Source: Pseudomonas chlororaphis subsp. chlororaphis
GTDB lineage: Bacteria; Pseudomonadota; Gammaproteobacteria; Pseudomonadales; Pseudomonadaceae
Direction of reading: 5' to 3'
Assembly: GCF_003945765.1 (NCBI RefSeq)
Contig: NZ_CP027712.1
Location: forward strand, 5,518,001 to 5,582,000
DNA: 64,000 bases
The notes beneath the pieces were generated by a model. That model ran no database searches. It saw only the letters and a program-made list of their open reading frames with translations, and was not told where the DNA came from. The position numbers were made by a program, and so were the translations under genes. Below, piece after piece: positions 8,657-64,000 of the stretch; positions within the stretch are counted from its first letter, which is position 1, and each line of letters begins with the position of its first letter.

Positions 8657-8669
8657 CGGTTTACGGCGA

Positions 8670-8704
8670 CAAAAAAGCCCCGGATGATCCGGGGCTTTTT
8701 TTGG
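8670..8704 (+). terminator. Rho-independent terminator after leuA
   Basis: AAAAAAGCCCCGGATGATCCGGGGC is followed by eight T residues: a perfect 7-bp GC stem with a T tract. The A tract on the other side lets it act for the convergent gene ending at 8725. Confidence 0.93.
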
Positions 8705-8724
8705 CTGTGCATTTATTGCCCCAC

Positions 8725-9138: not shown

Positions 9139-9192
9139 GACAAATCTCCCTGAAAATCCTCTTACCCCTTAACGGCCCACCCCGACAGATCT

Positions 9193-11126: not shown

Positions 11127-11201
11127 GGGTGATTCCCTGCTGAACACCCGGCTCTACGGCGGCTCGGGGAGGTCCCGAGAATAGCCCAAACCACAGGCAT
11201 G

Positions 11202-11228
11202 AAAAAGGGCGCCAAAGGCGCCCTTTTT
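11202..11228. terminator. Bidirectional terminator-like hairpin
   Basis: AAAAAGGGCGCC AAA GGCGCCCTTTTT is a perfect stem with A and T tracts on both sides. It lies downstream of der (minus strand) and upstream of the aminotransferase gene, so it most likely ends der transcripts. Confidence 0.85.
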
Positions 11229-11242
11229 CCAAGGCAAATCCT

Positions 11243-11310
11243 GCAGGAGCCGGCTTGCCGGCGAAGCATTGAAGCGGGTCCGGGGCTTCGCCGGCAAGCC
11301 GGCTCCTACC
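11243..11310. repeat. REP-like inverted repeat pair
   Basis: GCAGGAGCCGGCTTGCCGGC and its inverted copy ending GGCAAGCCGGCTCCTACC flank a short spacer. This is the common Pseudomonas REP pattern in an intergenic gap, next to the terminator after der. Confidence 0.85.
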
Positions 11311-11317
11311 AGGTGAC

Positions 11318-12790
11318 TCAGCGCTTGTCTTTGCGCTTCTTCTCGGCCTTTTTGTGGTGTGTCATTAAACGACGCTTCTTGTTGACCTGACGGTCGGTGA
11401 GCGTGTTCTTGTTGCCTTCGTACGGGTTTTCGCCGCCCTTGAATTCGATGCGGATCGGCGTACCGACCAGCTTCAGAACACGCCGGTAGGTGTTTTCCAG
11501 GTAGCGCACATAGGACTTCGGCACCTTCTCCACCTGATTGCCGTGGATCACGATCAGCGGCGGGTTGGCGCCACCCAGGTGGGCATAACGCAGCTTGATG
11601 CGACGGTTGTTGACCATCGGTGGCGCGTGCTCGCTCACGGCGTCTTCGAGGATCTGCGTCAGGCGGCTGGTCGGCCAGCGGGTTACCGCGGACTTGAAGG
11701 AGTTCTGCACCGACTGGTAGAGGTTGCCCACGCCAGTGCCGTGCAACGCCGAAATGAAGTGGATGTCGGCGAAGTCGACGAAGAACAGCCGGCGCTCCAG
11801 CTCGGTCTTCACATAGTCACGCTCGCGCGGGTCCATGCCATCCCATTTGTTCAGGGCGATGACCAGGGCCCGGCCCGCTTCCAGGGCGAAGCCCAGCAGG
11901 TTCAGGTCGTGGTCGACCACGCCTTCGCGGGCGTCCATGACGAAGATCACCACGTTGGCGTCCTTGATCGCCTGCAGGGTCTTGACCACCGAGAATTTTT
12001 CAACTTCCTCGTGGATCTTGCCGCGCTTGCGCACACCGGCGGTGTCGATCAGCGTGTACTTCTCTTCGTTACGCTCGAAGGGAATGTAGATACTGTCGCG
12101 GGTGGTGCCCGGCTGGTCGTAGACGATGACCCGGTCTTCGCCGAGCATGCGGTTGACCAGGGTGGACTTGCCCACGTTCGGCCGACCGATGATGGCGATC
12201 TTGATCCCGTCTTTTTCGCTCGGACCCGGAATGCGCTTGGCTTCCTCGCCTTCGGCTACGACTTCTTCCTCGCCCTCTTCCGGCTCGTCTGCGTCGTCTT
12301 TCGGGAACTCGCGCAGGGCGATTTCCAGCATCTGCGTGATACCACGACCGTGAGCACCGGCGATCGGGATCGCGTCGCCCATGCCCAGCGGGGCGAACTC
12401 GGCACGTGCCATGTCTGGGTCGATATTGTCGACCTTGTTGGCGATCACGTAAGAGGTCTTGTTACGTTTGCGCAGGTGCTCGCCGATCATCTGGTCGGCC
12501 GCGGTGAAACCGGCCTTGGCATCTACCAGGAACAGGACGACATCGGCTTCTTCGATGGCCAGCAGCGACTGCTCGGCCATCTTTTCGTCCATGCCATGCT
12601 CGTCACCGGAGATACCGCCGGTGTCGATCAGAATGTAGGTACGCCCTTGCCACTTGGCCTCACCGTATTGGCGATCACGGGTCAGACCGGACAGGTCGCC
12701 GACAATGGCGTCGCGAGTCCGAGTCAGGCGGTTGAACAAGGTGGACTTGCCGACGTTCGGTCGGCCCACCAGGGCGATTACGGGAACCAT
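11318..12790 (-). CDS. der: Ribosome assembly GTPase Der (EngA)
   Basis: The 490-residue protein has two tandem GTPase domains, each opening with [10 protein letters not shown] (residues about 8 and 203), with switch motifs DTGG and DTAG and NKVD/NKWD base-binding motifs. A C-terminal KH-like domain ends in a basic tail ([11 protein letters not shown]). Der promotes 50S subunit maturation. The linker between G domains is unusually acidic ([12 protein letters not shown]). I chose the ATG at 12790; the upstream ATG adds MESR only. It follows bamB after a 139-base gap full of hairpins. Confidence 0.98.
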
Positions 12791-12826
12791 GCGGCTCTCC
12801 ACTGCGTTAATTCAGAAAATACAAAA

Positions 12827-12917
12827 GCCGCTGCGAGGCAGCGGCTGGTGCTCGGGGCAGCACGTGACGTGCTGCGAACCTTGCCGGGGCAAGGCCGCTT
12901 GGGGATCAACCCCAAGC
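12827..12917. other. Four tandem hairpins between bamB and der
   Basis: Four perfect or near-perfect inverted repeats lie head to tail: GCCGCTGC/GCAGCGGC (12827-12845), GCAGCACGT/ACGTGCTGC (12857-12875), CCTTGCC/GGCAAGG (12879-12894) and GCTTGGGG/CCCCAAGC (12897-12917). Read leftward, the last hairpin before der is followed by TTTTGTATTTT, so it resembles an intrinsic terminator or attenuator within the bamB-der unit. Confidence 0.7.
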
Positions 12918-12929
12918 ATAGTCAAACCA

Positions 12930-14081
12930 TTACTTGATGGTCAGGGCTTCCAGTTTGCCGCTGTTGCCATACACATAAATCATATTGCCCACTACCAGCG
13001 GACGCGCACGCAGACCATCGCTGTCGATACGCTCACGGCCAACGAAGCGACCGTCAACCTGGCTCAGCAGGTGCAGGTAACCTTCCAGGTCACCGACCGC
13101 CACGTAGCTGGAGAAGACTTCCGGGGCCGACAGTTGACGGCGGGCCAGCGAGTCGTTGCTCCACAGCGCAGTGGTGGAACGCTCGTCGATGCTTTCGACG
13201 GTGCCGGAGGACAGGCTCACATAGACGCTGCCGAAACCTTGAGCGACACCCGCATAGCTGGAAGCATCGCGCTGCCAGAGCGGACGACCGCTTTCCAGGT
13301 CCAGCGCCGCTACGCGACCCTGGTAGCTGGCGACATACAGGGTGCCACCGGACAACAGCAGGCCACCGTCGATATCGACCACGCGATCCAGTTCGGAACG
13401 ACCTTGCGGAATGGCCACGCGCTGTTCCCACACCGGCACGCCGTTGCGGATATCCAGGGCCACCACTTTACCGGTCGACAGACCGGCAACCGCCAGGCGG
13501 TTGGTGGTGATTGGCGCACTGGTGCCGCGCAGGGTCAGTACCGCCGGGGTGCTGTCGTAGACCCACATCTGGTTGCCGGTGGCGGCATCGAGGCCGATCA
13601 CACGGTCATCCTGGGTCTGGACCACCACCACATCGCCATTGGTGGACGGCGGAGCCAGTACTTCACTGGTCACCCGCGCGCGCCACTTCTCTTCGCCGCT
13701 CGAAGCGTCCAAAGCGACCACTTCGCCCTTGAGGGTACCGATCATGACCAGACCGTAACCCACGCCAACGGCACCGGACACAGGCAACTCCAGGTCCTGT
13801 TTCCATTTGACGTCGCCGTTCATGCGATCCAGTGCCTCTACCACGCCAGTGACGTCGGCGGCGTAGATGGTGCTGCCGTCGATCGCCGGAACCAGCATGT
13901 TGTAGGTTTCGCCCTGGCCGTCACCGACCGAACGGCTCCACTGTTTCTGCAGGACCACTTCTTCTTTGAAGTCGACCAGTTCGGCAGGTGGCAATTCTTT
14001 CTTGCTGTTGCTGCTGCAACCCGCGGCCAGAACGGCCAGAGCCAGCAATGCTGCATGTTTCCAACGGATCACGTCACGCAT
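12930..14081 (-). CDS. bamB: Outer membrane assembly lipoprotein BamB
   Basis: This 383-residue protein starts MRDVIRWKHAALLALAVLAAGC, a signal peptide with lipobox LAAGC (Cys22). The rest is a PQQ-like eight-bladed beta propeller with repeated blade motifs such as VVALDASSGEEKWRARV and VAALDLESGRPLWQRD. BamB is the scaffold lipoprotein of the BAM complex that inserts beta barrels. The ATG at 14081 overlaps the end of yfgM by eight bases; longer in-frame extensions run inside yfgM and are not credible. Der follows downstream. Confidence 0.96.
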   Translation of the reverse strand: MRDVIRWKHAALLALAVLAAGCSSNSKKELPPAELVDFKEEVVLQKQWSRSVGDGQGETYNMLVPAIDGSTIYAADVTGVVEALDRMNGDVKWKQDLELPVSGAVGVGYGLVMIGTLKGEVVALDASSGEEKWRARVTSEVLAPPSTNGDVVVVQTQDDRVIGLDAATGNQMWVYDSTPAVLTLRGTSAPITTNRLAVAGLSTGKVVALDIRNGVPVWEQRVAIPQGRSELDRVVDIDGGLLLSGGTLYVASYQGRVAALDLESGRPLWQRDASSYAGVAQGFGSVYVSLSSGTVESIDERSTTALWSNDSLARRQLSAPEVFSSYVAVGDLEGYLHLLSQVDGRFVGRERIDSDGLRARPLVVGNMIYVYGNSGKLEALTIK

Positions 14082-14715
14082 CCCCTTTGGCCAGGTCGTC
14101 CAGCTTGATTTGTAGGCCACCGACCGCCGCTTCATCGGACAGCGCGGCCTTGGCTTTTTCATACGCAGCATGGGCTTCGTCGGTACGGCCCAATTGGACC
14201 AGCAGGTCGCCCTTGAGCTCTTCGCGAGTGGCCAGGAATGCCTTGTCGGCATCGCCTTCGAGCAGCTTCAGCGCTTCATCGGCCTTGTTCTGCGCGGCCA
14301 GGACCTGGGCCAGGCGCTGACGGGCGATTTCGCCCAGCGTCGGGTTGGCCGGCTTGTCGGCGATGGCTTTGAGCTCGGTCGCTGCGTCGTCCAGCTTGCC
14401 GGTGTCGACCGCCACCTTGGCGACGAACAGGCTGCCGTATTGCGCATAGGCAGTACCGCCGAACTCACTGTTGAGCTTGCCGGCCAGGTCTGCGACACGG
14501 GCTGCATCCGGCTTGCCGTCAGGCGTCAGCGTGGTCTCCAGCAATTGCTGATAGAGCATCGAGGCGCCTTGCGATTGATTGTTCTGATACTTGTGCCAGG
14601 CCTGCCAGCCGAACACGATGACCAGCGCCAACAGGCCGCCGGTGACCAGGGGCTTGCCGTTGCGCTGCCACCAGTCCTTCAAATCCGCCAGCTGTTCATC
14701 TTCGGTACTCGACAC
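14074..14715 (-). CDS. yfgM: YfgM/BamB-associated TPR membrane protein
   Basis: The 213-residue product has a short cytoplasmic N-terminus, one membrane span at about residues 24-42 (LVTGGLLALVIVFGWQAW), and a periplasmic domain with TPR-like helices. YfgM partners the SecYEG-associated chaperone PpiD in E. coli and lies between hisS and bamB in many gammaproteobacteria, as here. It overlaps bamB by eight bases, so translation is coupled. Confidence 0.93.
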   Translation of the reverse strand: MSSTEDEQLADLKDWWQRNGKPLVTGGLLALVIVFGWQAWHKYQNNQSQGASMLYQQLLETTLTPDGKPDAARVADLAGKLNSEFGGTAYAQYGSLFVAKVAVDTGKLDDAATELKAIADKPANPTLGEIARQRLAQVLAAQNKADEALKLLEGDADKAFLATREELKGDLLVQLGRTDEAHAAYEKAKAALSDEAAVGGLQIKLDDLAKGDA

Positions 14716-14755
14716 CCCAATACTCCTTATTCGCTAAATCGGCTGTTTGACAGCT

Positions 14756-16045
14756 TCAACCCTGCACGACGCAGGTGGCCAGGTGTGCAGCGAGCGCATC
14801 CCAGGCAATGCTTTGTTGTTCGCCCTGGCCACGCAGGGGTTTGAAACCTACCACTTGCTGGGCCAGTTCGTCGTCACCGAGGATCAATGCGTACAACGCA
14901 CCGCTCTTGTCGGCCTTCTTGAACTGGCTCTTGAAGCTGCCGGCACCGGCGTTGATCTGCAGGCGCAGGTTGGGCAACTGATCACGAACCCGTTCACTCA
15001 GCGCCAGAGCAGCCAGTTCGGCGGCTTCCCCGAAAGCGCAGAGATAAACGTCGACCTGGCGCGAGATCTCTTCAGGGATCTGCTCCAGAGTTTCCAGCAG
15101 CAGTACCAGACGCTCGATACCCATGGCGAAACCGACACCCGGGGTAGCCTTGCCGCCCATCTGCTCGACCAGGCCGTCGTAGCGGCCGCCGGCACAGACG
15201 GTGCCCTGGGCACCGAGCTTGTCGGTGACCCATTCGAAAACGGTCTTGCTGTAGTAATCCAGCCCGCGCACCAGCTTCGGGTTGATCACATAAGGGATAC
15301 CGGCGGCATCCAGACGGGCCTTGAGCCCCTCGAAGTGCACGCGGGACTCTTCGTCCAGGTAATCGGCCAGCTTCGGCGCGTCCACCAGTACGGCTTGAGT
15401 GTCCGGGTTCTTGGTGTCGAGCACGCGCAGCGGGTTGGTTTTCAGGCGGCGCTGGCTGTCTTCGTCGAGCTTGTCCATGCGTGCCGAGAGGAACGTCACC
15501 AGCGCATCGCGATAACGCGCACGGGCTTCGGCGGTTCCCAGGCTGTTCAGCTCGAGCTTGACCGCGTCACGGATACCCAGTTCGCCCCACAGGCGCCAGG
15601 TCAGCACGATCAGTTCGGCGTCGATGTCCGGACCGTCGAGGTTGAAGACTTCGCAACCGATCTGGTGGAACTGACGATAACGGCCTTTCTGCGGACGCTC
15701 GTGACGGAACATCGGGCCGATGTACCAGAGTTTCTGCACCTGGCCACCGCCAGTGATGCCATGCTCGAGCACAGCGCGCACGCACGCCGCGGTGCCTTCC
15801 GGACGCAGGGTCAGGGAGTCGCCGTTACGGTCGTCGAAGGTGTACATTTCTTTTTCGACGATGTCGGTCACTTCACCGATGGAGCGCTTGAACAGCTCGG
15901 TGAACTCGACGATCGGCATACGGATCTGCTTGTAACCGTAGTTATCCAGCAACCGCGCAACGGTGCCCTCGAAATAGCGCCACAGGGGCGTCTGCTCGGG
16001 CAGGATGTCGTTCATGCCACGAATGGCTTGCAGAGACTTGCTCAC
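14756..16045 (-). CDS. hisS: Histidyl-tRNA synthetase
   Basis: This 429-residue class II synthetase shows motif 2 with [17 protein letters not shown], the histidine-specific signatures [15 protein letters not shown] and [15 protein letters not shown], and a C-terminal anticodon-binding domain. It charges tRNA-His in the cytoplasm. It starts [18 protein letters not shown] and sits 22 bases after ispG. Confidence 0.98.
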
Positions 16046-16067
16046 AAAAAATCCTTAATTCGTTCGA

Positions 16068-17177
16068 TTAGCCGCGCGCGATCAGCGCTGCGTCGGCTTC
16101 GACCTTTTCGGCCGCTTTCTCGCGGATCAGCTTTTCCAGTTGATCCACAAGATTGTCATTCGTCAGTTTCTGCGACGGCTTGCCGTCGATGTAAATCAGG
16201 TTCGGCGTCCCGCCGGTCAGGCCGATATGCGCCTCTTTGGCTTCGCCCGGACCGTTGACCACACAACCGATGACCGCCACGTCCAGCGGTACCAGCAGAT
16301 CCTCGAGACGCCCTTCCAGTTCGTTCATGGTCTTGACCACATCGAAATTCTGCCGCGAGCAGCTCGGGCAGGCGATGAAGTTGATGCCACGGGAACGCAG
16401 ATGCAGGGACTTGAGAATGTCGTAGCCGACTTTCACTTCTTCGACCGGGTCGGCCGCCAACGAGATGCGAATAGTATCGCCAATCCCTTCGGCCAGCAGC
16501 ATACCGAGGCCCACGGCGGATTTCACCGTGCCTGAACGCAAACCGCCAGCTTCGGTGATACCCAGGTGCAGCGGCTGGATGATTTCCTTGGCCAGCAGGC
16601 GATAGGCTTCGACGGCCATGAACACGTCGGAGGCTTTCACACTGACCTTGAAGTCCTTGAAGTTCAGGCGCTCAAGGTGCTCGACGTGACGCAGGGCAGA
16701 CTCCACCAGCGCCGCCGGGGTGGGCTCGCCATATTTCTTCTGCAGGTCCTTTTCCAGGGAACCGGCGTTGACGCCGATACGGATCGGGATCCCGCGATCA
16801 CGGGCCGCATCCACCACCGCACGCACGCGGTCTTCACGACCGATGTTGCCGGGGTTGATCCGCAGGCAATCGACGCCCAGTTCGGCCACGCGCAAGGCGA
16901 TCTTGTAGTCGAAGTGGATGTCGGCAACCAGCGGCACCTTGACCTGCTGCTTGATACGACCGAAAGCTTCGGCCGCGTCCATATCCGGTACGGAAACCCG
17001 CACGATATCGACACCGGCGGCTTCCAGACGGTTGATCTGGGCCACAGTGGCCGCCACATCGTTGGTGTCGCTGTTGGTCATGCTCTGCACGGCAATGGGG
17101 GCATCGCCACCCACGGGTACCGAGCCGACCCAGATCTTGCGGGACTCGCGACGTTTGATTGGAGATTCGCCGTGCAT
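16068..17177 (-). CDS. ispG: 4-hydroxy-3-methylbut-2-enyl diphosphate synthase
   Basis: This 369-residue enzyme of the MEP isoprenoid pathway reduces methylerythritol cyclodiphosphate to HMBPP. The N-terminal TIM barrel contains [11 protein letters not shown] and RINPGNIG, and the C-terminal cluster domain has CPSC (two ligands) and [13 protein letters not shown] (third ligand) for the [4Fe-4S] centre. It lies 3 bases after rodZ in a tight leftward operon with hisS downstream. It depends on Isc cluster supply, encoded about 3.5 kb upstream. Confidence 0.97.
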
Positions 17178-17180
17178 GAC

Positions 17181-18218
17181 TTATTGACCTAACTTCAGGC
17201 GAGCAGTCTCGCCACTGGTGAACGGAGCCACATCGACCGCTTGTCCGTTGTAGCTGACCTGCGCACCACGGGCATAACCCAGGCGCACGGCAAATGGCGG
17301 CTTGCCGGAAACATCGGCGGTCTCGCCCTTGCGCTTCAGGCCACTCAACAGCACTTTGCCGCTGCCGTCGGTGATCTGGGTCCAGCAATCGGCTGTGAAC
17401 TGGATCTGTACCTGACCCGCGCCGGCTACAGGCGCGGCGGCGGGCGCAGTTGGCGCTACCGGGGTAGCCGGAATAGTCGCTGCTGCAACCACAGGCGCTA
17501 CAGGGGCAGGCGCGGCCGGAGCGCTCGGCGCTGGTGCCGCCGGTGCTACGACCACTGGGGCAGGAGCAACCGGGGCTGCAGGTGCGGCAGCCGGGGCGCT
17601 TGGCGCAGGGGCTGTAGCATCAGCCTGGGCCTGGCCTGGAGCCGGGGCTTCAGGCAGGGCCAGGGCGGTTTCGCCCTCGGTCTGACCTTCCACGACCGCC
17701 TGGTCTTCCGGCTCATCGATCGGATGAATCTGCGTGGTGCCGTCGGCCCCTTCGACTTCGACGTGTTCCTGATTGAGACCAACCAGCTCCTTGGTGCGCA
17801 CGGACGTTTGATCCTGCCACCAGATAAAGCCACCACCGATCACCGCGATCAGCAGCAACAGGCTGACGATGCGCAAAATGGTGTGGGAAACCCGTACTGG
17901 CTCTTCGATACGGCCGAGGCTGTGCACATTGCTGCCCTGGGAATCGGTGCCCGTGTATTGGTCGAAGGCCTGGACCAGAACGGCCTGGTCCATCCCCAGC
18001 AACTTGGCATAGGCACGGATATAACCGCGGGCGAAGGTATGCCCCGGCAGCTTGTCGAAAGCGCCGGCTTCCAGGTTGCTCAACGAGTTTGCGGTCAGAT
18101 TGAGCTTGAGGGCCACTTCAGCCAGCGACCAACCATTGCTTTCGCGGGCCTGACGCAGGGTCTCACCGGGGTTGACGCGAGTCGCTGCTAGAACTTCGGG
18201 ATGCGCCGCTTTCATCAT
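17181..18218 (-). CDS. rodZ: Cytoskeletal protein RodZ
   Basis: The 345-residue protein has the RodZ layout: a cytoplasmic helix-turn-helix of Cro type (residues about 18-85), one membrane span (about 113-133, ILRIVSLLLLIAVIGGGFIWW), a Pro/Ala-rich periplasmic linker (about 185-265, many APAAPAP units), and a C-terminal DUF4115 beta domain. RodZ anchors MreB for rod shape. Its start overlaps the stop of the upstream pilW-type gene by four bases. Confidence 0.95.
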   Translation of the reverse strand: MMKAAHPEVLAATRVNPGETLRQARESNGWSLAEVALKLNLTANSLSNLEAGAFDKLPGHTFARGYIRAYAKLLGMDQAVLVQAFDQYTGTDSQGSNVHSLGRIEEPVRVSHTILRIVSLLLLIAVIGGGFIWWQDQTSVRTKELVGLNQEHVEVEGADGTTQIHPIDEPEDQAVVEGQTEGETALALPEAPAPGQAQADATAPAPSAPAAAPAAPVAPAPVVVAPAAPAPSAPAAPAPVAPVVAAATIPATPVAPTAPAAAPVAGAGQVQIQFTADCWTQITDGSGKVLLSGLKRKGETADVSGKPPFAVRLGYARGAQVSYNGQAVDVAPFTSGETARLKLGQ

Positions 18219-18973
18219 TGCTCCGACAGGTATTGCTGATATTCCGGCGTACCGGGATAGAGTCGTTTTAATTGCAGGCCGTAACTGGCGGCCTTGTCGC
18301 GATCTTCAAACACCGTTGCCAGCCGAACGCCGAGCAATAGACTACGTGCATTTTGCTCGCTCAGCAGGCTAAAACGATCGTAATAGTCGCGGGCGGGCAC
18401 ATAATGCCTGTCTTCGAAGGACAACTCAGCCATTTCCAGCAATGCGCGAGGCTGCTGGCGGTTCAGGCGCAGGGCTTTTTCCAGGTGTTGCCGGGCCAGG
18501 TCACGCTCACCCAGCATCGCGGCGGTCATGCCAAGGTTCTCGAACACTCGGGACCGTTCGGGGTACAGGGTATCAGCAGCCGCCTGTTCAAAGCGCTGAT
18601 AAGCATCTTTGTAACGTTTTTCTTCAAAGAGAAAGCTGCCGTAGTTGTTCAGGATACGGGCATCGGAGGGACGCGCAGCCAGGGCCTTGCGGTAATGCTG
18701 GTCAGCCAGCTCGGGTTCCATTTCAGCCTGGAACACCAGCGCCAGGGCGGCATTGGCGTCAGCGTCGGACTCGTCCAGCTCCAAGGCCTTTTTCAGCGGC
18801 ACTTTCGCCCGCTCGGTCATGCCTTGTTGCAGATACCCCAAGCCCAGCTGAACATAGGCCTCACGCGCCTCGTCCCGCCCCTTGCTTGTCTTCATCGGGT
18901 TGAAATCCCCCGAAAGAACACAGCCAGCCGACAGGCTGACAAAAAGCAGAAGCAGCGCGACGCGCAAGGTCAT
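18215..18973 (-). CDS. pilF: Type IV pilus biogenesis lipoprotein PilW/PilF
   Basis: This 252-residue lipoprotein has a signal peptide with lipobox LSAGC (Cys18) and about six TPR repeats across the mature part (YVQLGLGYLQQGMTERA and ADANAALALVFQAEMEPELA are two of them). PilF is the pilotin that places the PilQ secretin in the outer membrane. The gene name differs between species (pilW or pilF). It heads the ispG-hisS unit and starts 12 bases after rlmN. Confidence 0.93.
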   Translation of the reverse strand: MTLRVALLLLFVSLSAGCVLSGDFNPMKTSKGRDEAREAYVQLGLGYLQQGMTERAKVPLKKALELDESDADANAALALVFQAEMEPELADQHYRKALAARPSDARILNNYGSFLFEEKRYKDAYQRFEQAAADTLYPERSRVFENLGMTAAMLGERDLARQHLEKALRLNRQQPRALLEMAELSFEDRHYVPARDYYDRFSLLSEQNARSLLLGVRLATVFEDRDKAASYGLQLKRLYPGTPEYQQYLSEQ

Positions 18974-18985
18974 GGAGATCCTCTC

Positions 18986-20134
18986 TCAGGTACGATTCGC
19001 AGCGCTTTGCGGCATATCGGCGTCGGCGCTCAATTCGCGCACCGCGATATAACGTTCGCTACGACGGGTGCGATCCAGCACCTGCCCGACCAGTTGTCCA
19101 CAGGCCGCATCGATGTCTTCGCCGCGCGTGGTGCGCACGGTGACGTTGAAGCCTGCGTGATGCAGTTGATCCTGGAACCGGCGAATGGCGTTGTTGCTCG
19201 GCCGCTCGTAACCGGAATGCGGGAACGGGTTGAACGGGATCAGGTTGATCTTGCAAGGAATGTCCTTGAGCAACGCGATCATCTCGACAGCGTGTTCAAC
19301 CTTATCATTGACGTCCTTGAGCAGCGTGTACTCAATCGTCAGCACACGTTTCTCGCCCAGCGACGACATGTAGCGCTGGCAGGACTCGAGCAGCATCTTC
19401 AGCGGGTACTTCTTGTTGATCGGTACCAGCTGGTTGCGCAGCGCATCGTTTGGTGCGTGCAGGGACAACGCCAGGGAAACGTCGATGTGCTTGGCCAGCT
19501 CATCGATCATCGGTACCACGCCGGAGGTCGACAGGGTCACGCGGCGCTTGGAAATGCCGTAGCCCAGGTCGTCCATCATCAGGTGCATGGCCGAGATGAC
19601 GTTGTCGAAGTTCAGCAGCGGCTCACCCATGCCCATCATCACCACGTTGGTGATGGCACGGTCGACGGTCGCCGGGACACTGCCAAAGGATTTGTTGGCA
19701 ATCCACACCTGGCCGATGACTTCGGCGGCGGTGAGGTTGCTATTGAAGCCTTGCTTGCCGGTGGAGCAGAAACTGCAGTCCAGGGCACAGCCTGCCTGGG
19801 ACGAAACGCACAAGGTGCCGCGTTTGCCCTGGGGAATGTAAACGGTCTCGACGCAGCTGCCGGACGCCACGCGCACCACCCACTTGCGGGTGCCGTCGCT
19901 GGAGATGTCCTCGCTGACCACTTCCGGACCACGAATTTCGGCAACGGCCTTGAGCTTTTCGCGCAAGGCCTTGCCGACGTTCGTCATGGCGTCGAAATCA
20001 TCGACGCCAAAGTGGTGAATCCATTTCATTACCTGACCGGCACGGAAACGCTTCTCCCCGATTGAGTCGAAGAATTTTTCCATTTCCGGTTGAGTCAGAC
20101 CCAACAGGTTAGTTTTGCCAGTCGATGTAGTCAT
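18986..20134 (-). CDS. rlmN: 23S rRNA (A2503-C2) / tRNA (A37-C2) methyltransferase RlmN
   Basis: This 382-residue radical SAM protein has the cluster motif C116xxxC120xxC123 ([15 protein letters not shown]), the SAM-binding [12 protein letters not shown], and the C-terminal cysteine region [14 protein letters not shown]. RlmN methylates C2 of A2503 in 23S rRNA and A37 in some tRNAs. I use the ATG at 20134 ([13 protein letters not shown]), with AAGGTG upstream; a start six codons earlier is also open. ndk ends 29 bases upstream of this start. Confidence 0.96.
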
Positions 20135-55880: not shown

Positions 55881-56264
55881 TCAGGCGTTACCCAGCGACT
55901 GGCGGGAAGCCCGCGCAGCCTTCAGTGCGCGCCAGGTCCAGAGCGCGCCGCACAGGTCCGGCAAGGCCAGCAGCAACAGCACCGGCGACACCAGCCCGGC
56001 GGCGGCGAAGGCGGCAAAAAACACCGGCACCGACAGACGGATCGCCACCGTCAGGGCCATCAACTCGCGCCGCTCGGTGTAGCCGGCCCAGACGTAATAG
56101 ACGCCCAGGTACAAGGCCAACTGGCCCATCACCCGGATCCACACCTCATCGGTCAGGGCGAAGCCGAACAACGGCAACAACAGGTTCGGCGCCAGCACCA
56201 ACGCGGCGCCCAGCAACAACATGTACAGGCCGAACACAAACACGCTCTTGCCCGGATGGCTCAT
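55881..56264 (-). CDS. Small integral membrane protein (DUF4345-like)
   Basis: The 127-residue protein has four hydrophobic spans starting at VFVFGLYMLLLGAALVLAPN and resembles the DUF4345 type. Its ATG overlaps the stop of the monooxygenase gene (ATGA), so it is translated with it. Function is not known. Confidence 0.75.
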   Translation of the reverse strand: MSHPGKSVFVFGLYMLLLGAALVLAPNLLLPLFGFALTDEVWIRVMGQLALYLGVYYVWAGYTERRELMALTVAIRLSVPVFFAAFAAAGLVSPVLLLLALPDLCGALWTWRALKAARASRQSLGNA

Positions 56265-57775
56265 GGTTTCACTCCTTGGGGGTGCGAGGTGAGGCGATAG
56301 GCCTCGGCATCGAAATAACGGGTCTGCTGGCGGAACTGCCAGCTGAACCCTGGCCACAGGGCGACGTTGCGCCCGCTGTTGGGGTCCATGTACCAGCTCT
56401 GGCAACGGCCGACGCTCCATACCGCGCCGCGCAGCCGATGGCGCAGGCCCTGGTTGAAGCGCGCCTGGGCCTGCGGATCGACATCGACGCTGGTCACGCC
56501 CAGGCGTTGCAGGGTGTCCAGGGCGCCGAGGATGTAGGCGATCTGCGACTCGATCATGTAGACGATGGAGTTGTGCCCCAGGCCGGTGTTGGGCCCCATC
56601 AACAGGAACAGATTGGGAAAGCCGCTGACCGTGGTGCCCTTGTAGGCTTCGCTGCCCTGCTGCCAGGTGTTGACTATGTCCACCCCGCCACGCCCGAGGA
56701 TCATCCCCGCCGGGAACGGCGTGCGCGCCTTGAAGCCGGTGCCGAAGATCAGTGCATCCAGGGCATGGCGCTGGCCGTCGACGGTGATCAGCGCGTCCTC
56801 GGTGACTTCACGGATGCCGCTGGTGACCAGCCGGGTATTGGCCTGGGCCAGCGCCGGAAAATAATCGTTGGACAGCAGGATGCGCTTGCAGCCGATGGCG
56901 TAGTCCGGGGTCAGGCGCCGGCGCAGTTCCGGGTCCTTGACCTGGCGCCGCAGCAGGTTGAGCGCCAGCCATTTGTGCAGGGCCATCAGTCGCGGGTTGA
57001 ACACGAAACCCAATACCCGGGTTTCATGGGCGGTGTAGATCAACCCGCGCAACAGCCGCTGCACCGCGGGAAAACGTCGCAGCAGGTGCTGGGCGGTCGT
57101 GGAAAAGGCCCGATCCGGCTTGGGGATGATCCACGGCGGCGTGCGCTGGAACACCGCCAGGCTGGCCACCCGCGGCTGGATCTGCGGCACGAACTGGATC
57201 GCCGAGGCGCCGGTGCCGATCACCCCCACCCGCTTGCCGGCCAGGACGTAGTCATGGTCCCACTGCTGGGAATGAAAGACCCGGCCCTTGAAGCGCTCAA
57301 GCCCCGGCAGTTGGGGATAGTCCGGAGTCGACAAGGCCCCGGTGCCGGCCACCACCACCTGGGCGAAACGCACGCCGCCACGGGCATCCGTCACCTGCCA
57401 CAGGGCGCGCTCTTCCAGCCAGCGCAGGCCGGTGACCGCGGTGTTGAAGCAACAGTGTTGCAGCACCTGATACTTGTCGGCGCAGTGCCGCAGGTAGTCG
57501 CGGATCTCCGGCTGCGGCGAAAAGCGTCGCGACCAGTCGGGGTTGGGCTCGAAGGAAAACGAATAGAGGTGGGAAGGAATATCGCAGGCACAGCCGGGGT
57601 ATTGATTGACCCACCAGGTGCCGCCGACGCCGGCTTCCTGTTCGAGGATCAGGAAGTCCTGTTCTCCGCGCTGGCGCAGGTTGATCGCCATGCCGATGCC
57701 GGAGAAGCCGGCGCCGATGATCACGACCCGATAGACCCGCGCGGGGTCGGCCTGCTCCTGAAGTAGCGCACTCAT
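56261..57775 (-). CDS. Flavin monooxygenase, Baeyer-Villiger type
   Basis: The 504-residue flavoprotein has the FAD motif GAGFSGIG (21-28), the NADPH motif GVIGTGASA (184-192), and between them the Baeyer-Villiger fingerprint FKGRVFHSQQW (162-172, FxGxxxHxxxW). Such enzymes turn ketones or aldehydes into esters or acids. The ATG at 57775 is chosen; a GGCGGC-rich extension upstream is not credible. It overlaps the small membrane protein gene by four bases and follows the HIT gene by 112 bases. Confidence 0.92.
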   Translation of the reverse strand: MSALLQEQADPARVYRVVIIGAGFSGIGMAINLRQRGEQDFLILEQEAGVGGTWWVNQYPGCACDIPSHLYSFSFEPNPDWSRRFSPQPEIRDYLRHCADKYQVLQHCCFNTAVTGLRWLEERALWQVTDARGGVRFAQVVVAGTGALSTPDYPQLPGLERFKGRVFHSQQWDHDYVLAGKRVGVIGTGASAIQFVPQIQPRVASLAVFQRTPPWIIPKPDRAFSTTAQHLLRRFPAVQRLLRGLIYTAHETRVLGFVFNPRLMALHKWLALNLLRRQVKDPELRRRLTPDYAIGCKRILLSNDYFPALAQANTRLVTSGIREVTEDALITVDGQRHALDALIFGTGFKARTPFPAGMILGRGGVDIVNTWQQGSEAYKGTTVSGFPNLFLLMGPNTGLGHNSIVYMIESQIAYILGALDTLQRLGVTSVDVDPQAQARFNQGLRHRLRGAVWSVGRCQSWYMDPNSGRNVALWPGFSWQFRQQTRYFDAEAYRLTSHPQGVKP

Positions 57776-57887
57776 GTTCCTGACTCCTGGCGGCACAAAC
57801 GCCGGGCGAGACCGTCCGCAGCGCATGCACGGCTGTTCATTCCGAAGTTCCGTGGATCGAGGGTGGGCCGCTCACCGGCCCTGGCGG

Positions 57888-58385
57888 TTAGGTTGACGCT
57901 GCGTGCAGCCTGCTGGTCCGGTGCGCCAGGTTCTCCAGCGCCTGCGGGTCGAGTTCGGCGGCGATCACCAGGGCCTGGCGGCGCAGGGTCTGCAGGGGCG
58001 TGCGGCGGCCGAATATGCCGGTGAAGTGCATGAACATGCGCAGGCCGAAACCCAGCCCATCGCCCCTTTGCCGCGGCACCAGGTGCAGGTGGGCGTGGGG
58101 AATGTGCTGGTTGGTGGCTTTGCCATCGTTGACGATCAGGTGCGTGCCTTCCACCCCGAAGCCGGCGCGCCGCTGGGCGGCGAGCAAGGTATCGAACACC
58201 TGGTACAGATGCTGGCGGATGACCGTGGGCAGTTGCTCGAGTTTTTCCACATGGGCCAGCGGGATCAGCAGCAAGTGCCCCTGCCCCAGCGGATGCACAT
58301 CCATGAAGGCCATGCAGTGGGTGTCGCGATAGACCAGGGCACTGGGCAATTCGCCGGCCGCGATCTGGCAGAAAATACAGGTCAT
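57888..58385 (-). CDS. HIT-family (histidine triad) protein
   Basis: The 165-residue protein has a CxxC pair near the start (C3, C6) and the HIT motif HIPHAHLHLVPR with H97, H99 and H101. HIT enzymes hydrolyse nucleoside phosphoramidates, acyl-adenylates or dinucleotides. It lies 48 bases after a desaturase gene, in a cluster that handles acyl chains, so an acyl-AMP substrate would make sense, but that is a guess. Confidence 0.88.
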   Translation of the reverse strand: MTCIFCQIAAGELPSALVYRDTHCMAFMDVHPLGQGHLLLIPLAHVEKLEQLPTVIRQHLYQVFDTLLAAQRRAGFGVEGTHLIVNDGKATNQHIPHAHLHLVPRQRGDGLGFGLRMFMHFTGIFGRRTPLQTLRRQALVIAAELDPQALENLAHRTSRLHAAST

Positions 58386-58433
58386 CCGTGAATCCTCGGT
58401 GAGTGGCGCTCCTTCGGGCGCTGTAAATGTAGC

Positions 58434-59390
58434 TCACGCCGCTCGCCGAGGTTCGGCGCAAGTTGTTACCGGACGTCGCGCGAACATCCGCGCCAGCAGC
58501 CAGCGGTCGCGCAGGTAGGGCTTGTTGTCCAACAGCGCCGCCAGCCGCGGCAGGTTGACGAAGGGCACGCCGGGGTAGATGTGATGCTCGACGTGGTAGT
58601 TGATATTGGCCCACAACAGGCCGATCAGCCGGTCGCTGACGGTCACGGTGTTCTTCGCCAGGTCCAGGCGCTCCGGGTCGCCAACCGCCAGGGTGGCCAT
58701 GGGGAAGTGCTCGTAGCCCCGGGAAATCGGGTTGATCACCAGCGCCAGCAACAGCAGCGGCACGATGAAAATCAGCACGAATTGCAGCATCAGCCCCTGG
58801 CTGTAGCACCAGGCGCCGATCGCCGCCATCGACAGCAGATTGAACGCCAGCTCGCGCAGCACCCGGTTGCGCACCGCCTTGCCGTAGCGCACCAGGGAAA
58901 AGTAGATGAAGCGCGGCACGAACACGGCGATGCGCAGGAACATCCACTTCACCCCGCCGGTGTAGTTCCAGTCGTCGGGGTCCTTGTCCGGGTCGCCCAG
59001 GTAGCGGTGATGGTATTTGTGGCACTCGGTGAAGGAGGAAAACGGGAACACGATGAACCAGGCCATGAAGCGCCCGACCCACAGGTTCAGCGCCGCCGAA
59101 CGAAAGCCGCTGGCATGCCCGCAATCGTGCTGCAGCACGGTGAAGGCATGCAGCTGGTTGCCCAGCACCAGCACCGCCAGCGCCAGGCCCCAGGGGTTGT
59201 CGCCGAGCAGGATGTACAGCGCCGCCGCGCACCAGACCAGCACATGCAGTACCGACCAGAGCACGAACTTCAGCGGCTGCGGCTGCATCAGTGCCTGCAG
59301 CTGGGCCTGGCGCTCGCGGTCGACCCGCAGTTCGGCGCGCTTGGCCAGCCGCAGTTCGTCCTCGGCGGCGTGGTGGGTTGAATGATTCAT
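58434..59390 (-). CDS. Membrane fatty-acid desaturase / hydroxylase (II)
   Basis: The 318-residue protein has about six spans and three His boxes of the membrane di-iron family: H88xxxH92 (HDCGH), H124xxH127H128 (HKYHH) and H266xxH269H270 (HVEHH). All ligands for a di-iron centre are present. The ATG at 59390 follows AAGGTC. The gene lies directly after the ferredoxin-reductase gene, its likely electron source. Regioselectivity cannot be read from sequence. Confidence 0.92.
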   Translation of the reverse strand: MNHSTHHAAEDELRLAKRAELRVDRERQAQLQALMQPQPLKFVLWSVLHVLVWCAAALYILLGDNPWGLALAVLVLGNQLHAFTVLQHDCGHASGFRSAALNLWVGRFMAWFIVFPFSSFTECHKYHHRYLGDPDKDPDDWNYTGGVKWMFLRIAVFVPRFIYFSLVRYGKAVRNRVLRELAFNLLSMAAIGAWCYSQGLMLQFVLIFIVPLLLLALVINPISRGYEHFPMATLAVGDPERLDLAKNTVTVSDRLIGLLWANINYHVEHHIYPGVPFVNLPRLAALLDNKPYLRDRWLLARMFARRPVTTCAEPRRAA

Positions 59391-59416
59391 GAATTGACCT
59401 TCCTCTGTCTGTATCG

Positions 59417-60448
59417 CTAATCGACTTGCAGGCGCACGTCGTCCGTCAATGGATAGCCCACGCACAACAGTGCCTGGCCCCGGTTCAGTTCGTCCGCCGA
59501 CAGCCCATGGTCCTCGCGCATGCGTACCTGCCCCGCCAGCCGGGTGCAGACGCAGGCCGTGCAGAAACCGCTGCGGCAGGAAAACGGTGGCTGCACGCCG
59601 CTGGCCAGGGCCGCGTCGAGCAGGGTCTGGCCCGGGGCGACCGTGAAACTGAACGCCTGGCCCTGCATCAGCAGCTCCACGCGTTTTTCCGTGTCGCCGC
59701 TGGCCACTGGCGCCTTGGCCGGGGTGAAACGCTCCTGGTGCACGCTTTCCGGGGCGATGCCCAGGGCCTCCAGGGCGGCGGTCACCTCGTCCATCATGCC
59801 GCTGGGGCCGCAGCTGTAGTATTCGCGGGCTTGCGGGCCGGGCAGCGCGCCGAGAATGTCGATCACCCGCTGCCGGGTCAGGCGTCCTTCGTGGGCCCCC
59901 GGGGTGTCCGGCCGCGACAGCACATGCACCAGTTGCAAGCGCTCGCCGAAGGTCTGGCGCAGCTGGTCGAGCTTGTCGCGAAAGATCACCGACTGCTGAT
60001 TGCGGTTGCCGTAGATCAGCGACACCTGGGCGTCCGGCTCGAAGTGCAGCGCCGACTTGAGGATCGAGAAGATCGGCGTGATCCCGCTGCCCGCCGCCAG
60101 CAGCACCAGGTGCCGCCCCCGGCCCGGCTGCGGGGCGAAGGTGAAGCGGCCGTGGGTGCCGAGGGTCTGCACCGCGTCGCCGGCGCTCAGCTCCTGCACC
60201 AGGCGGTTGGAAACCTTGCCGCCGGCCACGCGCTTGACGGTGATTGACAGGGTCTTGTCCAGCCCCGGCGTGCTGCTGATGGAATAGGCGCGGCAGCCCT
60301 TGGCGCCGTCGACGTCGACCTCCAGGGTCAGGTACTGCCCGGCGCTGTAGCGGACTTTGCGCAGCAGCGGCTGCTTGAGGTGAATGGTCACCGCATCGTC
60401 GGTTTCCCGTTCGATGGCGGCGACTTTCAAAGTCAGGGGACGGTTCAT
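59417..60448 (-). CDS. Ferredoxin-NADP reductase-type electron donor with fused [2Fe-2S] domain
   Basis: The 343-residue protein has a FAD domain (CRAYSISST, residues about 53-60), an NAD(P)H domain (LLAAGSGITPIFSILK) and a C-terminal plant-type [2Fe-2S] domain with C291-x4-C296-x2-C299 and C329. This single-chain donor fits membrane desaturases and hydroxylases. It overlaps the upstream desaturase gene by four bases, and a second desaturase follows 26 bases later, so it can serve both. Confidence 0.95.
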   Translation of the reverse strand: MNRPLTLKVAAIERETDDAVTIHLKQPLLRKVRYSAGQYLTLEVDVDGAKGCRAYSISSTPGLDKTLSITVKRVAGGKVSNRLVQELSAGDAVQTLGTHGRFTFAPQPGRGRHLVLLAAGSGITPIFSILKSALHFEPDAQVSLIYGNRNQQSVIFRDKLDQLRQTFGERLQLVHVLSRPDTPGAHEGRLTRQRVIDILGALPGPQAREYYSCGPSGMMDEVTAALEALGIAPESVHQERFTPAKAPVASGDTEKRVELLMQGQAFSFTVAPGQTLLDAALASGVQPPFSCRSGFCTACVCTRLAGQVRMREDHGLSADELNRGQALLCVGYPLTDDVRLQVD

Positions 60449-61749
60449 GGCTGGCCCAGGGCGCTGTGCGCGGGGGTGGGTTCGTCGGCGTTGCGCGGTG
60501 TGGCGAGGCGCCGTTGATGGGCATGTTCATGGGCCGCGATGGGCGCCGGCAGCACCCGGAATTGCAGCAGGCGGACTTTCTCTGCGTGGTCCAGCGGCTG
60601 CCACCAGTCGAGCTTGTCCGCCAACGCATCGAAGCGGCGCAGCATCAGCAGCACGAACAGGCCGAATACGCTGAGGTCGCGAAACACCATGGAACCCGCG
60701 GCCGCCAGTTCCGGCTTGAGCCGCTCGAACAGCGCCGGGCTCTCCGACCAGTGGCCGACGGACCAGTGATGGTGGCAGGCGTGGTAACCCTCGTTGAGGA
60801 TGTTCACCGGTGTTTCCAGCAGGGTCACGGTGTTGTACATCCAGTCCTTGGGGTCTTGCTGGCCGCCGTAGAAGGCGTGCTGGCTCCAGTGGATGACGCC
60901 CATCAGGAAATTGCTCGCGCACCAGGGCACCAGCATGTAGAGCACCGCGATCGGCAGGCTGTAGCACGCCAGCGCGACGAACAGCCCGACATGCACCAGG
61001 TTGCCCATGACCATGGCCCGGGCCTGGCTGCGCTTGTGTTTGCTCTTGAAGTACAGCCAGGGCGAAACCATGAACTGCTGGTACATCACCTCGCGCACCA
61101 TATACACGGCGAAATCCCAGGCGCTGGCATGGTCGTAGCGCGCGGTGGCGTAGACATCCAGCGGCCCGGCGTTTTCCCGGTGATGCTGTTGCAGGTGCGC
61201 CGCCGCATGGGGGATCAGGCCCATGGGAATGGCGAAGAACATGTACAGGAAGGAATTGCCGACCCAGCGATCGAGCAGGCTCGAACGCTTGAAGATGCCG
61301 CCGGGCACATGGCCTTCCTGATGCATGGCGCTGAAGGAGCGGACAAAGCCGCGAATGTTCGGCCCATAGACGAAGGCGTAGAACAGCAGCACCAGCAACC
61401 AGGAGATTTCCTTGAGCCACAGCTGGGCAATGAACACCGGCCCGGCGGTCAGGCCCAGGCTGATGGCGGCGGCCAGGATCGGCTCGTCCCGCGGGTCCTT
61501 GAGCAAGCGGTCGGCCAGGGGTTGCAACAAGCGGTGATAGCTCGTCACCAGCCAGTTGCCCAGGGCCTTCATGCCCGGCAGCCACGACAACGACCGGCGC
61601 CCGGCCTGCAAGGTGCATGACAGGGCCAGAATCACAGCGATGGCCGCGGTGTTGAACACCAGCAGCAGGCTGAACAGCGGAATAGCCAGGCAGTGAAACC
61701 CGCGACCGACATTGGCCGGGCGCGGCGGATAGAGAAAATCGCTACTCAT
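60445..61749 (-). CDS. Membrane fatty-acid desaturase / hydroxylase (I)
   Basis: The 434-residue protein has about eight spans and His boxes H143xxxH147 (HQEGH), H185xxxH189H190 (HLQQHH) and H323xxH326H327H328 (HACHHH), all fit for a di-iron centre. It is longer than, and quite unlike, the second desaturase (318 residues), so the two act at different positions or steps. A 1-alkene-forming enzyme (UndB-like) is an alternative within the same superfamily. It overlaps the reductase gene by four bases. Confidence 0.9.
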   Translation of the reverse strand: MSSDFLYPPRPANVGRGFHCLAIPLFSLLLVFNTAAIAVILALSCTLQAGRRSLSWLPGMKALGNWLVTSYHRLLQPLADRLLKDPRDEPILAAAISLGLTAGPVFIAQLWLKEISWLLVLLFYAFVYGPNIRGFVRSFSAMHQEGHVPGGIFKRSSLLDRWVGNSFLYMFFAIPMGLIPHAAAHLQQHHRENAGPLDVYATARYDHASAWDFAVYMVREVMYQQFMVSPWLYFKSKHKRSQARAMVMGNLVHVGLFVALACYSLPIAVLYMLVPWCASNFLMGVIHWSQHAFYGGQQDPKDWMYNTVTLLETPVNILNEGYHACHHHWSVGHWSESPALFERLKPELAAAGSMVFRDLSVFGLFVLLMLRRFDALADKLDWWQPLDHAEKVRLLQFRVLPAPIAAHEHAHQRRLATPRNADEPTPAHSALGQP

Positions 61750-61827
61750 GCTTCTACTCCATTAGGCATGTTGCCGAGCCGGAGCGACGCCAGGGGCGCC
61801 GAAGCTCCGGCTGCGGTAGCAGGCGAA

Positions 61828-62964
61828 TCAGGCGCTGTAGGACTCGCGCAGGAACTGCGCCAGCAACGGCGTGGCGGCGCTGCGGGAGATCGGGTGGAAG
61901 CCGATCGCCCGGGAGGCCGCCAGCAGATAGGCCACTTCGTCGGAGGCGATGAACGCCATGCCACCCAACAGCTCGACGCTGAGGTTGGTCGCCCGCTCGA
62001 TCGCCGCCTGCACCAGGAAGCGCGTGCACAGCGCCTTGTGGTAGGTGTTCATCGGCGCATCCTGTTGCGCCTGCAATTCGCCGGCGGTGCCGAGCAGCGC
62101 CTGATGGGCGCCCTCCAGCTCGATGCACAGCAGGGCCAGTTGCGCGGGGTCGGCGAAGGGCTTTCTCAGCAACCGGTCGACCAGCGCCGAAGCCACGCCC
62201 AGGTAGCTGCCGCCGACCATCAGCTGGAACCAGCTCAGGCCGTTGAGCGAGGTTTCCATGGCGGTGGCGGCCACTTCTTCGCTGTCGGCGCCGTCGGCCA
62301 GCAGCATGCGCTCGCTGGGCACGAACACGCCGTTGAACACCAGTTCGTTGCTGTCGGTGGCACGTAGCACCGTGGCGTTCCAGAAGGGTTCGCGGGTGAT
62401 CGTGCTGCCATCGGCAAAGACCACGGCAAAGCCCTGGCTGACGCTGCCGTCGTCCTGTTCACAGGCGACGCCGACCACGATCACGTCCATGTGGTGGCTC
62501 ATGGTGCAGGGCTTCTTGCTGCCGTCGAGGACGAAACCGCCCTCCACCGGCCGCGCCTTGACGCTGCGGTTGAAGATCTCCGAGCCCGGCTTGCCCTCGG
62601 CGAAGGCCGAGGCGATCAGCAACTGGTCCTGGGTGATGCCCCACAGCAGCTCTTCCGCCGCCGGGATCAGCCCGCCCAGTTGCACGATGGTGGCGATGGT
62701 GTGGTGATGCATGGTCATCATCACCGCCAGGGACGGGCACAGCGAACCGATGGCGCGCAGGATCTCCACGGTTTCCTCCGGCGAGGCGCCGAGGCCGCCG
62801 TAGGTCTCGGGGATGATCAGGCCGGCGGCGCGGTAGTCGCGAAACAACCCGCAGAGCACGGCCGGATCGGCTTGCTCCAGGGCCATCAGGCCGCGCTCCC
62901 GGAGGGCGGCGAGCAGGCCCGGCAGGTACTTCTCGGTGGCGTTGCGGGCGTTGTGCATCGACAT
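61828..62964 (-). CDS. Acyl-CoA dehydrogenase-like flavoprotein
   Basis: The 378-residue protein has the fold of the acyl-CoA dehydrogenases: SLAVMMTMHHHTIATIVQ, an FAD-site region KKPCTMSHHMDVIVVG, and a C-terminal helix bundle with LLGGMAFIASDEVAYLL. The C-terminus reads ASRAIGFHPISRSAATPLLA, where family members have the YEGT-type motif with the catalytic Glu. That Glu is missing at the usual place, so it may be a modified dehydrogenase, a flavin monooxygenase of this fold, or have its base elsewhere. It lies 28 bases after the reductase-like gene. Confidence 0.85.
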   Translation of the reverse strand: MSMHNARNATEKYLPGLLAALRERGLMALEQADPAVLCGLFRDYRAAGLIIPETYGGLGASPEETVEILRAIGSLCPSLAVMMTMHHHTIATIVQLGGLIPAAEELLWGITQDQLLIASAFAEGKPGSEIFNRSVKARPVEGGFVLDGSKKPCTMSHHMDVIVVGVACEQDDGSVSQGFAVVFADGSTITREPFWNATVLRATDSNELVFNGVFVPSERMLLADGADSEEVAATAMETSLNGLSWFQLMVGGSYLGVASALVDRLLRKPFADPAQLALLCIELEGAHQALLGTAGELQAQQDAPMNTYHKALCTRFLVQAAIERATNLSVELLGGMAFIASDEVAYLLAASRAIGFHPISRSAATPLLAQFLRESYSA

Positions 62965-62992
62965 GGTGTGGACTCCTTTCTCGTTGTCAGGG

Positions 62993-64000
62993 TTAACCGG
63001 CTTTTTCGATCAACTGCTCCACCGCGGGGGTGAAACCGAAGGCTCGGGCCAGGTCGAAGATCGCTTCGGCATCCTCCAGTGGAGGACGCTTGCCGATGCT
63101 GTAGTCGCGCTGCAGGCCGGCCATGGTCAGGACCATGGTTTCGGCCAGGCAGCTGAAGGTCACGCCCGTGGGCAGACCGGTGAGGTTCTGCTGGCCGAAA
63201 CGCTGGCTGCGGTCGGGCAGATGGATCAGGCCGCCTTCGATCACCGTGACGTCCGGGCGCAGTGCCAGGGTGACGTGGCCGATGTCCGGCGGCTGCGCGC
63301 AGTCGCAGATGATCGCGTTCTGATGCAGCACCAGCGGATCGATAAAGGCCGAGCCATTGGAGGTCGCCGAGAGCACGGTTTCCAGGCGCGGCAGCCAGTG
63401 GCCCAGGTCCGCGGTGATCACCAGCGGCGGCTGCACCTGCGGCTTGCCCTGGGCCAGGGCGTCGACGCTGTCGAACAGCATGCGCAATTGCTCCTCGTCG
63501 CCAAGGTCGCGATCCAGCAGTTGCTCGACGCTGGCCAGGCTCGGCAGGAGCAGCACCAGGGTCTTGGCGATACCGCTGCTGTGGCCGCCCTGGATCTGCA
63601 GCAAGGCATCGCGATACAACTCGCCGGCCACCAGCCGCAGCTCGTCCATGGCGCCCCGATTGGCCCCATTGCCGAGCAATACCAGGTGCTCGCAGAAGCG
63701 CCCCAGGCGCAGGCTGGCCAGGCGACCCACCGAACCGTAGGCACCGATCACCCCGGTCAGGCGCTTGGCCAGCGGCGCGCCGCGGTTGGCGCAAGTGCTC
63801 AGCAGCGCATCGACACCGACCATGGCCGTCAGGCTGTTGCCGGTGGTGGTGTGGAACCGCTCATTGATGACATCCACGCCGGCACTGGAAATCACCGAGG
63901 TGTAGGCCCCCAGCCCGACGAAATCCACCTCCAGCTCGGCGACGCTGTCCAGGTAATTGGCCAGCAGCTTGCGCCGCTTGCCCAGGCTCAGGCGCATCAG
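62993..64000 (-). CDS. Acyl-ACP reductase-like (AAR-type) dehydrogenase, N-terminus outside window
   Basis: The frame is open to the right edge, so the N-terminus is missing. The part seen (about 335 residues) matches the layout of cyanobacterial long-chain acyl-ACP reductase: GLGAYTSVISSAG, TTTGNSLTAMVGVDAL, a Rossmann motif GVIGAYGSVGRLA, the late motif VIEGGLIHLP, and GVTFSCLAETMVLTMAGLQ whose Cys aligns with the acyl-thioester Cys of AAR. In cyanobacteria AAR makes fatty aldehydes. It is the first gene seen of a leftward unit with the flavoprotein and desaturases. Confidence 0.8.
   Translation of the reverse strand: MMRLSLGKRRKLLANYLDSVAELEVDFVGLGAYTSVISSAGVDVINERFHTTTGNSLTAMVGVDALLSTCANRGAPLAKRLTGVIGAYGSVGRLASLRLGRFCEHLVLLGNGANRGAMDELRLVAGELYRDALLQIQGGHSSGIAKTLVLLLPSLASVEQLLDRDLGDEEQLRMLFDSVDALAQGKPQVQPPLVITADLGHWLPRLETVLSATSNGSAFIDPLVLHQNAIICDCAQPPDIGHVTLALRPDVTVIEGGLIHLPDRSQRFGQQNLTGLPTGVTFSCLAETMVLTMAGLQRDYSIGKRPPLEDAEAIFDLARAFGFTPAVEQLIEKAG

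Follow-up and report, generated by a model that had tools for sequence, protein, structure and literature searches.

What an acyl-ACP reductase (AAR)-like domain contributes to Pseudomonas chlororaphis subsp. chlororaphis is the question raised by the last frame of the window analysed here, a stretch of 64,000 nucleotides (5518001-5582000 of a single-contig 6,808,187-base genome). The first-pass annotation had called the minus-strand frame at 62993-64000 an AAR-type fatty acyl reductase, and the motifs, coordinates and neighbouring genes that it described were all found to be correct. This frame is open up to the window edge, indicating that the window cuts the gene, and reading was continued past the edge in the same genome. 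The complete gene in the sequence beyond the window has 870 codons, with an ATG at position 65605 in window numbering (L003:3206), and encodes a fusion in which an N-terminal class-III aminotransferase (residues 22-411; PF00202, E 1.2e-75) precedes the AAR-like thioester reductase domain. The C-terminal 335 residues, belonging to the latter, are encoded within the window, and the remainder (64001-65605) outside it. Thus, the first-pass annotation holds for the domain, which has the AAR fold, and fails for the protein, and a stand-alone reductase of the cyanobacterial type is rejected because the gene encodes a fusion.

The AAR-like part matches no Pfam family at E 0.001, and has the fold of the cyanobacterial acyl-ACP reductase (6jzy/6jzq), with an equivalent of its Cys294. 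The Cys, the GxxGxxG motif and the TGN segment of the reductase domain are kept in the fusion and across its relatives, the catalytic Cys being present in all 193 AAR pieces (of 228 in total) that have a letter at that column. The best sequence match in the PDB, for the reductase part as well as for the full-length protein, is PigE (4ppm). Lys248, which sits in an invariant column of an alignment of seven sequences (A2), is the predicted PLP lysine, and Cys819 is the predicted catalytic cysteine.

The genes behind the fusion, all on the minus strand, encode a flavoprotein of the acyl-CoA dehydrogenase fold in a subfamily of its own (378 aa, 61828-62964), a membrane protein of the fatty acid desaturase type (DesB, 434 aa, 60445-61749, PF00487), a PaaE-like FAD/2Fe-2S reductase (343 aa, 59417-60448), a membrane protein of the fatty acid desaturase/hydroxylase type (DesC, 318 aa, 58434-59390, PF00487), a HIT-family hydrolase (165 aa, 57888-58385) with the motif HAHLH, a type I Baeyer-Villiger-type flavin monooxygenase (BVMO, 521 aa, 56261-57826) and a small hydrophobic protein (127 aa, 55881-56264) whose gene overlaps the BVMO stop. 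The BVMO-type enzyme carries the motif FKGRVFHSQQWD, which we take to be the type I BVMO fingerprint. The putative desaturase roles of DesB and DesC are assigned from PF00487 and their His boxes; PDB sequence searches with the two found no credible relative, and the best NCBIfam match of DesC is GntB (86.8 bits versus a cut-off of 380). The PaaE-like reductase is the probable electron donor for the desaturases. The region from 55881 to 64000 has a G+C content of 66.1%, versus 60.7% for the whole window.

Beyond the window, the fusion gene overlaps by 8 bases a gene encoding an acyl carrier protein (ACP, 65598-65972), and the genes from that of the small protein through that of the ACP lie on one strand with gaps of -10 to 78 bases (starts approximate). 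Further out are genes for a LuxR-type regulator (66763-67632), a stand-alone fatty acyl-AMP ligase (FAAL, 67629-69470), a divergent amidase (ending at 71286, with an approximate start only) and a third protein of the desaturase type (desA, 71301-72443). Between luxR and the ACP gene are 790 bases (65973-66762; L003:3574-4363) with an open reading frame (L003:3658-4218) that resembles a Pseudomonas repeat; this interval is about 2.4 kb in locus L013.

Conservation of the cluster was assessed over stretches of 18-21 kb at the 11 loci (L004-L013 and L019) that are closest to the own locus, which is itself not among them. Ten parts (FAAL, LuxR, ACP, aminotransferase, AAR, flavoprotein, DesB, PaaE, DesC and HIT) occur jointly in all 11, including that of Alkalilimnicola. 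The BVMO, the small protein, the amidase and DesA occur in nine, all four being jointly missing from Alkalilimnicola and P. mangrovi. Thus, the cluster appears to consist of a fixed core with a four-gene add-on. In place of the missing set, the Alkalilimnicola locus has two other desaturase-type genes upstream; in P. mangrovi, the FAAL and LuxR genes are at the opposite end of the cluster. Flanking genes for a nitrilase, a binding protein, a levansucrase-type protein and SHMT were each found in one of the 11 loci, some stretches of which end too soon to include them. The FAAL is 56-97% identical across the 11 loci and 64-78% identical in three other genomes of the clade (199 genomes searched); the next matches listed are 41-47% identical, mostly within open reading frames of about 4,300-4,400 aa that we assume to be PvdL-type pyoverdine synthetases. 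A C12-C14 substrate for the FAAL would be no more than a guess based on this assumption. A description of a cluster with FAAL, desaturases and an aminotransferase-AAR fusion was not recognised in the open-licence PMC papers searched, and this desaturase-rich Pseudomonas cluster is apparently uncharacterised.

The grouping of these proteins is reinforced by natural fusions. Protein P0182 (1548 aa) consists of a FAAL (residues 2-557, 40% identical to that of P. chlororaphis), an ACP (598-660), an aminotransferase (693-1095) and an AAR domain (1188-1513); P0183 joins ACP, aminotransferase and AAR; and P0027, which begins inside the aminotransferase, continues through AAR (140-499, 65% identity) and an Ala/Pro-rich linker into the flavoprotein (557-928, 66% identity). 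These arrangements speak for FAAL, ACP, fusion and flavoprotein acting in a single line. Two other aminotransferase-AAR fusions, P0076 and P0082 (1245 and 1260 aa), have a GNAT/FemAB-like domain at the N-terminus, which may add an acylation of the amine to this series of steps.

The first-pass annotation had also described AAR as known mainly from cyanobacteria, which would make it rare here. This was not borne out: among 398 genomes drawn evenly from a larger group of the genus, 55 have an AAR-like domain (E <= 1e-10). The clade of this fusion comprises nine of these 55 (own genome included), which score at least 489 bits, and the full cluster was present in all three of the clade genomes examined (own, G108 and G382). 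Genome G079 (428 bits) was left out of the clade, since P0068 was among the alignment seeds and the identities at the G079 locus (L086) are only 31-39%; P0068 groups with P. batumici in the AAR tree. Another 21 genomes score 123-157 bits; of the two examined, G019 has kec-like neighbours and G051 different ones. In a tree of 52 selected AAR domains, the own domain forms a group with eight other Pseudomonas sequences and Alkalilimnicola (support 100/100, stem 1.04), and several other sequences are on long branches and unsurely placed. The enzyme is of a known kind, in a distant clade.

A scan of named species kept the best 80 of 123 relatives, which correspond to 79 distinct loci; as it relied on two short motif patterns, distant relatives are under-sampled, and protein searches scored only the roughly 8,000 candidates with most words in common. 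An aminotransferase was also matched in 62 of the 79 loci. It was unmatched within the examined stretch of the other 17 (among L061-L081; 14 of Chloroflexota, 3 of Bacillota), which are instances of AAR-like domains outside Cyanobacteria. Among 94 proteins compared (own included), the aminotransferase precedes AAR in 79, three of which have a partial aminotransferase, the order is that of PigE in 11, and no aminotransferase was seen in four.

The known enzymes with the aminotransferase-first order are PtTamH, of the tambjamine YP1 cluster, and KecF/PP_2782. PtTamH (941 aa) resembles the fusion in having an N-terminal class-III aminotransferase with its PLP lysine and a C-terminal AAR-like thioester reductase with Cys and GxxGxxG, and in that its acyl-ACP is supplied by an adenylating enzyme together with an ACP. 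In vitro, PtTamH is reported to convert C12 acid to C12 amine when TamA, NADH and L-Glu are present; aldehyde was seen when L-Glu was omitted, and no amine was obtained from C12-CoA (PMC9594044). The printed positions Lys340, Cys887 and G707xxG710xxG713 (PMC9594044) are all carried by a 941-aa fusion at locus L111, of the genus Pseudoalteromonas, and pair in alignment A2, in invariant columns, with Lys248, Cys819 and G621/G624/G627. Neighbouring genes at L111 match the PigJ model (300 bits, cut-off 900) and the PigA model (342 bits, cut-off 500), and others encode an ACP-plus-serine-palmitoyltransferase-like protein and an adenylation enzyme, presumably PigH- and PigI-like. We treat the L111 protein as PtTamH itself or one of its close relatives.

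The cluster of P. chlororaphis differs from that of PtTamH in that FAAL and ACP are separate genes and that desaturases, the PaaE-like reductase, the HIT protein and the BVMO are found instead; genes for the bipyrrole MBC were not recognised among 16 frames scanned at the cluster. The PigJ model has five matches in the genome, none above the cut-off (best E 1.9e-25, a level also reached in 10 of 14 controls). KecF, for which reduction followed by transamination of an ACP-bound chain is proposed in the formation of koreenceine, a Pseudomonas alkaloid (PMC6498172), and its counterpart PP_2782 in a koreenceine-type Pseudomonas cluster (PMC10829540) share with the fusion the genus, both domains and their order. 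In the kec clusters, type II PKS genes are described as building the chain, whereas here the FAAL would load a ready fatty acid; no ketosynthase, and so no KS/CLF pair beside the fusion, was present in the 16 scanned frames (15 genes). The KecF-like protein of locus L115 sits with KS and SDR genes. A tambjamine or koreenceine cluster was rejected on these grounds.

PigE, of prodigiosin biosynthesis, has the reverse order, with AAR first; no reductase activity is reported for the purified protein, and lysate containing it reportedly did convert the thioester (PMC8341465). The cyanobacterial acyl-ACP reductase is alike in fold, Cys and Rossmann motif; it is free-standing, of about 340 residues, with aldehyde deformylating oxygenase (ADO) as its partner, in contrast to the 870-aa fusion described here. 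Cassettes for JamABC-type alkynes and bacterial polyynes reportedly likewise combine a FAAL, an ACP and several membrane desaturases (PMC8406139), whereas release in P. chlororaphis would be by reductive amination. Neither a thioesterase nor a rubredoxin, both marks of polyyne clusters, was among the 16 frames scanned. Further context is offered by papers on phurealipids (PMC4486325), nocuolin (PMC5333925) and TamA (PMC5939613).

With these comparisons, we consider it quite probable that the FAAL loads a fatty acid onto the ACP, that the chain is modified there and that the bifunctional fusion releases it as an amine by reductive amination. The stand-alone FAAL would adenylate the fatty acid and load the discrete ACP; the bound chain would be modified by the membrane desaturases, with electrons from the PaaE-like reductase, and perhaps also by the flavoprotein. 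The AAR domain would then take the acyl group onto Cys819 and, with NAD(P)H as reductant, form the aldehyde, which the fused aminotransferase, with PLP on Lys248, would convert to a terminal amine. In most of the close loci, the BVMO-type enzyme would subsequently oxidise this amine, or a different intermediate, and the amidase would process it. The sequences establish the architecture, the fold, the catalytic residues, the gene linkage and the natural fusions; from the relatives named above we infer every reaction, and the order of steps, the chain length and the product are likewise inferences. Several points speak against this pathway. The fusion is only 26% identical to the TamH-like protein of L111 and 27% identical to the KecF-like protein of L115; PtTamH reportedly formed no amine from C12-CoA, and purified PigE lacked reductase activity, although lysate containing PigE converted the thioester; the FAAL and luxR genes are 790 bases from the ACP gene, and are at the opposite end of the cluster in P. 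mangrovi; and the assignments of the desaturases (PF00487 and His boxes) and of the flavoprotein are tentative.

Other outcomes are accommodated less readily by the same genes. If the aldehyde were the true output, passing to the BVMO (to give a formate ester, then an alcohol) or another enzyme while the aminotransferase acts elsewhere, the type I BVMO-type motif, the best PDB matches of the protein to cyclohexanone-type BVMOs and its linkage in nine of the 11 loci would be explained; this is nonetheless unlikely, as aminotransferase and AAR are one polypeptide, no BVMO was found in the examined stretch of two of the 11 loci, although these retain both fusion halves, and PtTamH reportedly carries out first the reduction and then the transamination (PMC9594044). 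It is very unlikely that the reductase domain is inactive and serves only for ACP docking, given that Cys, GxxGxxG and TGN are retained here and across relatives; the lack of product from purified PigE (PMC8341465) and CoA-fed PtTamH (PMC9594044) in the reported in vitro work is compatible with this idea, and is not specific to it.

The shared architecture of the fusion, TamH and KecF might suggest a known pigment or alkaloid of the tambjamine, prodiginine or koreenceine type, and the PigE and PigA models do match the fusion and the flavoprotein, only at 414 bits (cut-off 850) and 55 bits (cut-off 500), respectively. Such a product is highly improbable in view of the low identity to TamH-like and KecF-like proteins, the absence of a ketosynthase from the scanned frames and the PigJ matches, all below the cut-off genome-wide. 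A cyanobacterial-style alkane or alkene pathway, with a membrane desaturase-type protein in place of ADO, would account for the AAR fold, the catalytic Cys and the linked desaturase-type membrane proteins, and yet is scarcely credible: a pathway of this type has no use for a fused aminotransferase, and to our knowledge it does not include loading by FAAL and ACP. In addition, ADO, which the first-pass annotation had not seen in the window, is also unmatched by PF11266 in the whole genome (the same model gives matches in two of 14 controls).

Reductive amination of the ACP-bound chain thus remains the preferred reading, in which the flavoprotein has only a tentative place. It is equally close to flavin monooxygenases, nitrososynthases included, and to acyl-CoA dehydrogenases, and fold comparison does not separate the two. 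Its identification as TamT was rejected: no TamT was identified, the flavoprotein has matches in only two of the loci L110-L114 (L110 and L114), both weak (22-24% identity, covering half of the protein), and a PigA-like gene occupies the corresponding position at the sister locus L111. If the flavoprotein acts on acyl-ACP, this would also have a bearing on how TamT functions in tambjamine biosynthesis.

Several side loci have relatives of these genes in other settings. At L046 of Photorhabdus thracensis (8432-12020), the only Photorhabdus locus scanned, the protein encoded after a TamH-like fusion has an LPG_synthase_C domain, of the aminoacyl transfer type, pointing to a fatty amine that carries an amino-acid cap. 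At L018 (Undibacterium, 8387-16511) and L015 (Bermanella, 8477-19130), relatives stand beside an amino-acid permease, a ribonucleotide-reductase-like diiron protein (with a weak PF11266 match, E 7.4e-4, at L018) and desaturases, perhaps another chain-modifying variant. L028 of Pseudoalteromonas ostreae (6686-15834) has a TamH-like fusion and a flavoprotein relative with an SMR efflux protein, as well as aminodeoxychorismate/anthranilate synthase-like and benzoate-CoA-ligase-like proteins; it is probably not a tambjamine cluster, since MBC models were unmatched at E 1e-20 in the other seven of eight proteins scanned.

The cluster may, more tentatively, make a new family of polyunsaturated or acetylenic fatty-amine natural products, in which the ACP-bound chain would be desaturated repeatedly, released by the fusion as a terminal amine and then N- or C-oxidised. 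The oxidation would fall to the BVMO-type enzyme or to the flavoprotein, which shares its fold with amine-oxidising nitrososynthases, among others. The core would have been passed between Pseudomonas and Ectothiorhodospiraceae, and the flavoprotein would be a new type of enzyme, restricted to pathways of this sort, with either acyl-ACP or the amine as its substrate. At the least, the likely misfiling of an alkane-type reductase in Pseudomonas is corrected. The free FAAL, the free ACP, the aminotransferase-AAR fusion and the desaturases would constitute a compact enzyme set for the conversion of fatty acids to amines. P. chlororaphis is known for biocontrol, and the conserved cluster in species such as this, which is worth a look by metabolomics, should yield unsaturated fatty amines.
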